Assembly: GCA_027729785.1 (NCBI GenBank)
Contig: JAQCDY010000002.1
Coordinates: 1 to 44,803 of the forward strand
Origin: Actinomycetota bacterium
GTDB taxonomy: Bacteria; Actinomycetota; Acidimicrobiia; Acidimicrobiales; Ilumatobacteraceae
Reading direction: 5' to 3'
Length of the DNA stretch: 44,803 bases
Each line of letters starts with the position of its first letter. The first letter of the stretch is position 1. Shown piece after piece: positions 35,808-38,286 of the stretch. A program made the translations under genes and the position numbers. Under the pieces are notes generated by a model. That model made no database searches. It was given only the letters and a program-made list of their open reading frames with translations, and was not told the origin of the DNA.

Positions 35808-35813
35808 GACTTG

Positions 35814-36839
35814 ATGCGTGATTACACCGTTGGCGGTGCCGAGGCGAAAATTGCCGAAGCGAATGGTCTAGTTGATGCCGATTGGTATAAACCAAAAGTC
35901 GACCGTGAGTTGATGAAACAATTTATGGCACGCAACAACGGTTTCGCCGCACTGCATATTGCAAGTTGGTTCGCCGCACTCGGCGTGTTCGGCTATCTCG
36001 CTCATCTGAGTTGGGGTTCTTGGTGGGCTGTGCCGGCGTTCGCCACTTACGGCGTGCTTTACGGCTCGATGAGCGATTCGCGTTGGCACGAGACGGGTCA
36101 CCGAACCGCATTCCGCACCAAATGGATGAATGACGTCATCTACTACATCGCGTCGTTCATGGTCTTTCGAGAGCCAGAAACTTGGCGCTGGAGTCACGCG
36201 CGTCACCACTCAGACACGATTATCGTCGGGCGCGACGCTGAAATCGCGGGCAAACGCAATGTTCCTTTTTATAAATACTTGCTTGAACTGTTTAGTTTCG
36301 CGGCCTTCCCAGCCGAATTGAAGCAATGGATACAAAACGCGTTCGGCAAAATCACCGCGAATCAAAAAGACTTTCAACCGCCTGAGACTTTTCGTATTTC
36401 AAAGTGGGCTTCGCGTGTTTACCTGTTGATACTTACTGCGACTGTTGTTTTCAGTTGGCAAATTCGCAGTTTCGAGCCGATGATGTTCATTGGTTTACCC
36501 AGCATTTACGGACACTGGTTCCTTGTCATGCTCGGATTTACACAACACGCAGGCCTTGCCGAGAACACGATCGACCATCGCCTGAACAGTCGCACCGTCT
36601 ACATGGGGCCACTCAATCGCTGGATCTATTGGAACATGAATTACCACGTCGAGCACCACATGTTTCCATCGGTGCCATTTCACCAACTCAAGAATCTGCA
36701 CGAGGCCGTGAAAGACCAACTGCCACCACCATACAAGAGCACGCTCTCGGCGCTTCGCGAAGTTGTCTACGCGTTGCGACGCCAAGCCAAAGACGAAAAC
36801 TTTTTTATTCAACGACAATTGCCACAAACTGCAGCCTGA
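35814..36839 (+). CDS. MocD-like membrane di-iron oxygenase (fatty-acid-desaturase family)
   Basis: A 341-residue integral membrane protein of the fatty acid desaturase/hydroxylase superfamily. The three histidine boxes that bind two irons are HETGH (92-96), HARHH (128-132) and HVEHH (278-282), separated by hydrophobic helices near 47-85, 105-117 and 200-240. The partner just downstream is a MocE-like Rieske ferredoxin, the pairing known from rhizopine catabolism. It probably hydroxylates or oxidatively demethylates a small molecule rather than desaturating a lipid. Next to a pathway ending in glycine betaine, a methylated amine is a tempting substrate, but nothing in the sequence proves it. 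Confidence 0.85.
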   Translation: MRDYTVGGAEAKIAEANGLVDADWYKPKVDRELMKQFMARNNGFAALHIASWFAALGVFGYLAHLSWGSWWAVPAFATYGVLYGSMSDSRWHETGHRTAFRTKWMNDVIYYIASFMVFREPETWRWSHARHHSDTIIVGRDAEIAGKRNVPFYKYLLELFSFAAFPAELKQWIQNAFGKITANQKDFQPPETFRISKWASRVYLLILTATVVFSWQIRSFEPMMFIGLPSIYGHWFLVMLGFTQHAGLAENTIDHRLNSRTVYMGPLNRWIYWNMNYHVEHHMFPSVPFHQLKNLHEAVKDQLPPPYKSTLSALREVVYALRRQAKDENFFIQRQLPQTAA

Positions 36840-36844
36840 TCGCT

Positions 36845-37162
36845 GTGAGTGACGAGTGGATAGTTGCTTGCGACTTTGCGTCTGTTGCCGCAAATGATGT
36901 CGTGCGTTGTGATGTTGCCGATGCAACATATGCGGTTATCAAACTCAGCGATGGACGTTGCAGTGTGATTGATGGTCTTTGCACTCACGGTAAAGCACAT
37001 CTGGCTGAAGGTTTTGTCGATGGCACAACTATTGAGTGTCCGAAGCACAACGGCAGATTTGATGCCTTGACCGGCGAGCCTGTGGCTTCGCCCGTGCGAG
37101 TTGCAACGACTGTTTACGAAACACGAGTCAACGTCGACAAAATCGAGTTTCGAAAGAATTAA
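36845..37162 (+). CDS. MocE-like Rieske ferredoxin
   Basis: A 105-residue soluble Rieske [2Fe-2S] protein. Ligand motifs are CTHGKAH (Cys46, His48) and CPKHNGRF (Cys65, His68). Length and pattern match the small ferredoxins that feed oxygenases. It starts with GTG 5 bp after the stop of the MocD-like gene, so it is almost surely the electron donor for that oxygenase. The frame is open far upstream inside the oxygenase gene, but that is a shadow. It is convergent with the redoxin gene, 7 bp away. No reductase gene is seen nearby. Confidence 0.9.
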   Translation: MSDEWIVACDFASVAANDVVRCDVADATYAVIKLSDGRCSVIDGLCTHGKAHLAEGFVDGTTIECPKHNGRFDALTGEPVASPVRVATTVYETRVNVDKIEFRKN

Positions 37163-37169
37163 GTGTTAA

Positions 37170-38225
37170 TTAGATATCGGTTCGGCCAGTGCCGAGTTTG
37201 AAACCCGGTCGACCAGCTTGCGACCACTGACCAACAAACTTGAAGAACTCGTCACCGAACGGATCAGCACCGACAAGCGGCATGTTGCCTCGACGAATTG
37301 TCCAGTCAAGTGGCGCGAGCTCTTCGGCTCGAGCGAGATGAACGCTGACACCATCAGCGTCTGTGCCACTCTCGCGCAAAGCAATTGCGATGCGGCGGTG
37401 TAGACGCGCCAACTGAAGATCTTGATCGGGCGAAACTTGAAACTCACGAACTTGCTGATCGTTGAGATCGCGCTCGCCCGTGCGAACCCACTTACGCAAC
37501 AAACTGTGATGCACCTCTGAGTCAACATTTGTAAACGAACGAAACATATCGCTACCCGGAACGCTGTCTGCAGGGCGAACAATCTTCGAGTCTTCGTCGA
37601 CCCACACTGCTGCTGGCACGTTTACAATTCCATAAAGATCGGCGACGATGTGATATTTGTCGATCAGAATTGGCATTGACATCGGTTCTTTTGTCGCCCA
37701 CTCGCGCACCGCTGCCTCATCGGCGTCTAATGCGACGGCGATAACCGTGAAACCAGTGTCTTGCAGTTCGTTAGTGAGTTGCTGCCAAACTGGCAGCTCG
37801 TAGCGACAGCCTCACCAAGATGACCATGCGAGCAGAAGCCTCTTGCGTCTGTTGTAGTCGCTGAAAGAAACTTGCCGACCGTGGATGTCGGGCAACGTAA
37901 AGTCTGGTGCGTCAAGCGTGGTCATCGCTTCGCTTCGTACATCGGCTTGCTCACCAAGTGCCGCCACTTTACGTTGTTGGTCGACGGCGATGTTTTGGTT
38001 CGTCACTCGTGCGAACTCAATGAGGTCAATGTGTGTGTGATTCGTCAGCATTTTCGCGTCGCGCACTGGCACACAATTTTCAGCGATGCACAGACCTTCT
38101 GGTTTTAGTTGCCAACCGGTGATAGTTGCAAAATCGTCGAGTGAAATCGCAAATTCGCCGAAATTTGAAGCAACTTCTACGCTCGCCGTCTCACCATTTT
38201 GATTAATGATCAGCCCAACTGTCAT
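37170..38225 (-). CDS. Probable selenocysteine-containing redoxin (thioredoxin-like), UGA at codon 138
   Basis: One frame of 351 codons with a single in-frame TGA at 37812-37814. Upstream of it is an unrecognised N-terminal domain (about 1-95, with GWQLKPEGLC) and the start of a redoxin fold (DAPDFTLPDIHGRQVSF). The TGA follows LLLAWSSW and precedes GCRYELPVW, exactly where the catalytic Cys of a TlpA/ResA-like protein stands. The fold then continues normally (TGFTVIAVALDADEAAVREW, MPILIDKYHIVADLYGIVNVPAAVWVDEDS, shown in parts) and ends in a helical extension. A SECIS-like hairpin lies just downstream. I therefore read the TGA as selenocysteine, giving W-S-S-W-U-G-C. The ATG at 38225 has AGGTG 5 nt upstream; GTG codons at 38228 and 38231 are alternatives. 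A nonsense mutation is the competing view. Confidence 0.72.
37776..37799 (-). promoter_or_regulatory. SECIS-like hairpin downstream of the in-frame UGA
   Basis: On the minus strand CTGCCA - GTT - TGGCAG forms a perfect 6-bp stem with a 3-nt loop (37796-37782), extended by GAG/CTC below a 3-nt bulge. The first loop base is a G, 22 nt after the UGA. This matches what is known of bacterial SECIS elements: a short stem-loop 16-37 nt downstream with a G at the start of the apical loop. Confidence 0.6.
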
Positions 38226-38286
38226 CACCACACCTTATGCGAAGTAGTGTCGCCACAGGCAATCAGACGAAAGTTTTGGGGATCAA

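Follow-up and report, generated by a model that had tools for sequence, protein, structure and literature searches.

Here, we describe a gene from an uncultured member of the Ilumatobacteraceae (Actinomycetota) which, judged by comparison with its relatives and with a probability of about 95%, encodes a selenoprotein, the UGA at codon 138 being read as selenocysteine (Sec). The gene lies in a stretch of 44,803 nucleotides, in the following called the window. A Sec in the site WSSW-U-GC had been proposed from the letters of the DNA, and this reading is now supported by pairs of UGA and Cys homologues, by co-occurrence with selA, by a hairpin downstream of the UGA and by genes of the Sec machinery.

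The frame runs on the minus strand, which the original prediction had left unnamed, from an ATG at 38225-38223 to a TAA at 37172-37170, and two in-frame GTG codons just 5' of the ATG provide an alternative start at 38231 (Table 1). The predicted coordinates proved exact, as did the description of a 351-codon frame with one TGA between AWSSW and GCRYELP: this single TGA (37814-37812) is flanked by LLLAWSSW and GCRYELP, the site reading LLLAWSSW-U-GCRYELPVWQQL, and the same-frame coding announced for more than 200 codons beyond it amounts to 213 sense codons. Read on the plus strand, 37170-38225 contains several stops and no such frame. The interval 35811-37162 encodes a fatty-acid desaturase and, after it, a small Rieske protein, convergent with the selenoprotein gene. 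No tRNA genes were found in the window, and no Rfam family exceeded its gathering score there.

Table 1. Features of the predicted selenoprotein gene (positions in the window).
Feature	Position	Strand	Remarks
Selenoprotein gene	37170..38225	-	ATG to TAA, 351 codons with UGA as Sec; homologues aligned full length
In-frame UGA, codon 138, predicted selenocysteine	37812..37814	-	U in 65/80 or C in 15/80 (best 80 relatives); 119 distinct UGA genes
SECIS-like hairpin GCUGCCA-GUU-UGGCAGC	37781..37797	-	-10.5 kcal/mol; stem kept beyond codon chance
N-terminal domain, about residues 1-100, invariant Trp38, Cys46, Cys51	37926..38225	-	model mean pLDDT 91.1
Cys46 codon	38088..38090	-	invariant in 61 aligned sequences
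Cys51 codon	38073..38075	-	invariant in 61 aligned sequences
Cys140 codon, predicted resolving cysteine of U-G-C	37806..37808	-	invariant in 61 aligned sequences
Thioredoxin-fold (ResA/TlpA-like, AhpC-TSA) domain, about residues 103-250	37476..37919	-	Pfam PF00578 1.2e-19; 2f9s_A Z 14.6
C-terminal helical region, about residues 251-351, TPR-like sequence	37173..37475	-	model helices; profile matches to engineered TPR proteins

Eight frames of the window are interrupted by a single TGA that has 80 or more sense codons to either side, if no start codon is required. Only the frame at 37170-38225 is accompanied by a SECIS-like hairpin whose energy reaches -7.5 kcal/mol or lower; in the other seven, the hairpin is absent or weaker, the best reaching -5.4 kcal/mol. 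This frame is not a product of chance. Since TGA also ends 17 of 35 long open reading frames picked in the window, a reassigned genetic code is ruled out.

The ordinary use of UGA as a stop in this genome speaks for a pseudogene created by a nonsense mutation, or for a true stop that leaves a short protein and a separate one downstream. Nevertheless, we consider either of these practically dismissed. In ungapped comparisons, the codons 3' of the TGA revealed a pN of 0.034 and a pS of 0.352 against G030, the nearest relative examined, and of 0.185 and 0.738 against a second relative (G095); two more relatives displayed a similar pattern, with figures that a small late gap may blur. These codons are thus under purifying selection. 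The same position furthermore holds a UGA in contigs whose titles name several phyla, Cys stands there wherever the UGA is absent, and the UGA form co-occurs with selA, all of which argues against a stop.

A scan of named genome contigs, from which the best 80 relatives were taken, unveiled only two residues at the site, namely U in 65 and Cys in 15 (including L232 and L252, both showing CGC), with none of any other kind. Thus, an in-frame UGA aligned with the Cys of homologues, the criterion by which bacterial selenoproteins are recognised, is found among these relatives. Their titles name Acidimicrobiia, other Actinomycetota, Deltaproteobacteria, Myxococcales, Alpha- and Gammaproteobacteria, Rokubacteria, Planctomycetia and Chloroflexi, though nearly all of the contigs are metagenome assemblies whose record titles may be wrong. 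A phylum-wide sample, found with the sister model NF041054, added 19 genes, 16 with U and three with Cys; here, 22 loci were read, of which two (L176, L179) stop short of the site and one (L177) is the same gene as L277. The expectation that homologues carry either Cys or UGA at this position therefore held in both sets. The Cys forms of the family, such as L198, L201 and L169, display WxSWCGC at the same site, with Cys in place of the Sec predicted here; a selA match is absent from 12 of the 15 genomes concerned, and the hairpin stem is intact in seven of the 15 genes.

Of 200 genomes searched at the level of the bacterial family, 145 contain a match, in many cases to a distant redoxin. Every match with E <1e-20 that covers residue 140 has at least one TGA, at identities from 83% to about 33%, while matches of this strength lacking a TGA are pieces that fall short of residue 140. 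Reading 27 family relatives and 40 further loci directly, we found U at the site in all of them; these 67 were picked from the strongest matches, and some are the same genes as in the set of 80. In a tree of 87 sequences, built with the site left out, the distribution of U and Cys needs five changes, at least four of which are forced by well-supported branches, and the gene of the window falls within an all-U clade of ten rows. Three alignments were used, consisting of the window and 21 chosen relatives (A1), the window and 60 of the 80 loci (A2), and 53 of the 61 rows of A2 (A3).

An error of sequencing or assembly, turning the TGC or TGT of an ordinary Cys redoxin into TGA, had to be considered, because the genome is a draft and Cys homologues do exist among the best 80. 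It is untenable, however, since TGA occupies this codon in many separate assemblies, including the 65 of the best 80 relatives and the 67 that were read directly. Moreover, UGA genes keep the hairpin stem by their choice of codons, which Cys genes do much less.

Some further members of the family deserve mention. One genome carries three UGA-containing matches within 6 kb (L132, G015:C519:1-6000). A metagenome contig titled Klebsiella pneumoniae (L202) has a UGA member that groups with the Proteobacteria-titled L204 and L206, the title probably being a mislabel. An unannotated 35% relative of residues 129-340 lies in two pieces on a Streptomyces plasmid (NZ_CP107820.1:14904-15501). In G425:C1 (L175), a relative is spread over two frames, and another match in the same genome has an extra TAG; these are possibly decayed copies. 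G464:C1 (L275), from another family of the same order, holds the exact motif WSSWUGCRYELPVW, so that the subfamily of the window is not confined to its own bacterial family. Two records of the phage collection and 47 of the plasmid collection gave matches, none covering 80% of the query.

Immediately downstream of the UGA, the gene can form a hairpin with a stem of 7 bp and the loop GUU, the apical loop lying 21 nt past the UGA. The published model of the bacterial SECIS has a loop of 3-9 nt, a stem of 4-16 bp, a G in the first two loop positions and a distance of 16-37 nt from UGA to loop (PMC13188914); the criterion applied here also includes a minimum free energy of -7.5 kcal/mol or lower. 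The hairpin of the window falls within all four constraints of that model (PMC13188914) and below the energy limit. For the counts of hairpins and codons, 147 genes (28 including the window, 39 and 80) were reduced to 134 distinct stretches of 66 bases, 119 with U and 15 with Cys, leaving out L132 with its several copies, a repeat of L045, and L041 and L042, in which the site is missing.

The five inner pairs of the stem are intact in 118 of the 119 distinct UGA genes as against 41.1 expected from synonymous recoding (sd 5.1, highest 56, 300 runs), although this count, like the codon counts below, overstates independence because the UGA genes are related. Among the Cys genes, the same pairs are intact in seven of 15, with 4.4 expected. 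In the stem, the Leu codon has a G at its third position in 118 of 119 UGA genes and in nine of 15 Cys genes, the background being 1230 G-ending codons among 2697 nearby Leu codons of UGA genes. Six genes have TTG and CAA in place of CTG and CAG, thereby preserving the pair; the exceptions are TTG with CAG in one gene and CTA with CAG in another. That 119 of 119 UGA genes have the loop motif N-G-[GU]-N-U counts for nothing, since the motif is dictated by the encoded protein (recoding gives an expectation of 119.0). Energy alone also separates the two forms poorly, a simple hairpin energy of -7.5 kcal/mol being reached by 98 of 119 UGA and seven of 15 Cys genes.

With regard to the machinery of Sec insertion, for which selA, selB, selC and selD had been named as genes to look for, our genome has selA on contig C131 (325.6 bits) and, directly after it, selB (288 bits, over the cut-off). 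A family search of the assembly found no whole selD. Contig C67, however, ends in 93 bases that encode the opening 31 residues of the region matched in the G030 SelD (80.6% identity, E 3e-12), and the sequence 3' of selD in G030 is picked up again where contig C128 begins (loci L271 and L272), which means that the assembly breaks inside selD. Across the genus, a selD match was seen in 22 of 29 genomes. For tRNA-Sec (selC), the assembly, which is 86% complete, gave no RF01852 match over the cut-off. Nine matches below the threshold had been considered as selC, but the eight loci that were fetched are ordinary tRNAs according to ARAGORN. G030 does have a tRNA-Sec with the anticodon TCA; its 6 kb around selC gave no DNA match in our assembly beyond a repeat of about 109 bases. 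Within the 200 family genomes, 138 have a tRNA-Sec match over the cut-off, a few being barely above it and possibly other tRNAs. The predicted machinery was thus recovered as far as the adjacent selA and selB and the start of selD are concerned, while selC was not found in this incomplete assembly but is present in G030.

The missing selC, together with the Cys that replaces U in 15 of the best 80 homologues, would fit the insertion of Cys or Trp at the UGA through a different tRNA, or general readthrough, in place of Sec. This is very improbable in view of selA, selB and the start of selD, of the SECIS-like hairpin, and of the tRNA-Sec with anticodon TCA in G030. We rather infer for the Sec reading that SelB, carrying Sec-tRNA, would decode UGA 138 as directed by the hairpin downstream, the codon and the hairpin themselves being evident from comparison.

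The occurrence of selA follows that of the UGA form. The comparison drew on the genomes in which 46 of the 80 loci lie, namely all 15 Cys and 31 of the 65 U loci. A selA was present in 30 of 31 genomes with a UGA gene but in three of 15 with a Cys gene (Fisher p 1.4e-7, with kinship ignored), and the sole UGA genome without it (L182) is apparently an 83%-complete draft. In the sample of 200 family genomes, again ignoring kinship, 85 of 92 with a strong match to the UGA redoxin have selA as against 66 of 108 without such a match; the seven UGA-redoxin genomes lacking selA are drafts of 75-90% completeness. Because the counted sequences are related, such p-values are too strong. Contrasts of U and Cys based on the tree leave four well-supported independent cases; in the typical pairing, selA follows the U form in three of these and runs counter to it in none, a result not significant alone. 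SelA itself scored over the cut-off in 150 of the 200 genomes of the bacterial family (151 with a match), so the earlier view that selenoproteins are uncommon in actinobacteria fails for this family. Actinobacteria using Sec are named in a survey from 2016 (PMC5029168).

Selenoproteins of a comparable build have been described before. A survey of ocean metagenomes from 2008 lists Prx-like (UGC-containing) selenoproteins with pfam00578 and the motif UGC, in a row with the figures 46, 15 and 855, and reports them to be commoner in non-marine samples (PMC2398784). UGC-containing Prx-like selenoproteins appear again in a 2022 review (PMC9312934) and, under the name 'UGC-containing TlpA disulfide reductase family protein' (cd02966), in a 2026 review (PMC13188914); members on record include MDE0950781.1 and MBL6689828.1 (PMC13188914, PMC9312934). 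The protein of the window has the same kind of domain, of the pfam00578 type, and its predicted Sec in the same U-G-C, as the literature describes it, a likeness that may or may not extend to identity of the subfamily.

The closest curated model is NCBIfam NF041054, WAxxUGC_long, an equivalog for a ResA-like WAxxUGC motif-containing protein of similar length and with the U-G-C site in common. Catalogued selenoproteins with a WAxxUGC motif had been mentioned with the prediction; the family exists, but the protein of the window scores 212.8 bits where the cut-off is 300, its best stretch being residues 28-224 of a 353-residue reading, and it has WSSWUGC instead of the motif that gives the model its name. 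Within the same bacterial family, four other proteins score 470-554 bits, and six nearer to the type of the window score 196-240. In the tree of 87 sequences, six rows of the NF041054 type form a clade separate from that of the window with a support of 100. Since UGC-containing Prx-like/TlpA selenoproteins are already catalogued and NCBIfam holds a sister model, the protein is, by its sequence, assigned to a known kind of selenoprotein, as a subfamily beyond the cut-off of the curated model. Neither WAxxUGC nor NF041054 was mentioned in the open-access texts searched. Pairing selenocysteine or selenoprotein with Acidimicrobi- or Ilumatobacteraceae returned nothing from the portions of the open-access literature covered, and pairing them with Ilumatobacter only a soil metaproteomics study.

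The predicted structure, built with Cys for Sec, has a mean pLDDT of 95.4 over the whole protein. Across 61 aligned sequences, Trp38, Cys46, Cys51, Trp137, Sec/Cys138, Gly139 and Cys140 do not vary. Pfam assigns the middle domain to AhpC-TSA/Redoxin (PF00578, 70.9 bits, cut-off 26). By sequence, the closest proteins of solved structure are ResA and DsbE-like, with peroxiredoxins lower in the same lists; by fold, the Cys-for-Sec model matches 3gl3 with a Z of 15.7 and, over model residues 103-250, ResA (2f9s_A; Z 14.6, rmsd 2.3, 136 aligned). With the thiol-disulfide oxidoreductases ResA, TlpA and DsbE, the protein shares the thioredoxin fold, as far as this model goes, and the position of the nucleophile. 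In the alignment, U takes the place of the leading Cys in the ResA motif WCEPC, but the second Cys is one residue closer, U-G-C being one residue shorter than CxxC. It also differs from these proteins in its additional N- and C-terminal parts and in the N-terminus, where inspection by eye revealed no evident signal peptide or membrane anchor. The N-terminal domain, modelled alone, gave no Foldseek match at E <=0.001 (best VIA Z 5.0), which is not proof of a new fold; nor did it give a significant Pfam match or, up to E 1, any PDB chain of similar sequence. As for the neighbourhood, genes resembling acyl-CoA ligase, acyl-CoA dehydrogenase and enoyl-CoA hydratase were seen at 11, 10 and 14 of the 80 loci, and within 1.5 kb at seven, seven and two; these names come from reading the starts of the sequences, and no function was inferred from them.

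Among proteins of the thioredoxin fold, a CGC motif is associated with isomerase activity. We favour, by some way short of certainty, the prediction that the protein is most likely a thiol-disulfide reductase or isomerase, and a cytoplasmic one because of the lack of a signal peptide by eye. Sec138, which the alignment places at the first Cys of CxxC in ResA/TlpA, would be the nucleophile, and Cys140, within the shortened Sec-Gly-Cys motif, would serve as the resolving thiol. The protein could instead be a selenoprotein acting chiefly as a peroxidase of the peroxiredoxin kind, as suggested by AhpC-TSA being the best Pfam match and by the name 'Prx-like' in the literature (PMC2398784, PMC9312934). 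We hold this to be unlikely, though worth keeping in mind: the closest sequences and folds are ResA/TlpA/DsbE-like in spite of the peroxiredoxins further down the lists, U corresponds to the leading Cys of CxxC with the second Cys two residues on, and the motif PxxxTxxU of Sec-peroxiredoxins, as given in a review (PMC13188914), is not at this site. For a thiol-disulfide reductase or isomerase, the weakest step is how the Sec-Cys bond returns to its reduced state; that the Cys46/Cys51 pair re-reduces it is a tentative suggestion. Equally speculative is a broader proposal, in which the N-terminal domain would be an undescribed redox module recycling Sec138-Cys140 as a selenium-to-thiol relay within one chain, in a clade that occurs in contigs titled as several phyla and whose members would alternate between Sec and Cys with the loss of the Sec machinery.

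The gene adds a well-supported predicted selenoprotein to an uncultured actinobacterial family in which most of the sampled genomes have selA (a match in 151 of 200). A gene finder lacking a suitable model would presumably cut the protein after codon 137. With UGA and Cys forms alongside each other and a trace of the SECIS at the level of codons, the family would lend itself well to a test, in nature, of how organisms retain or lose Sec.
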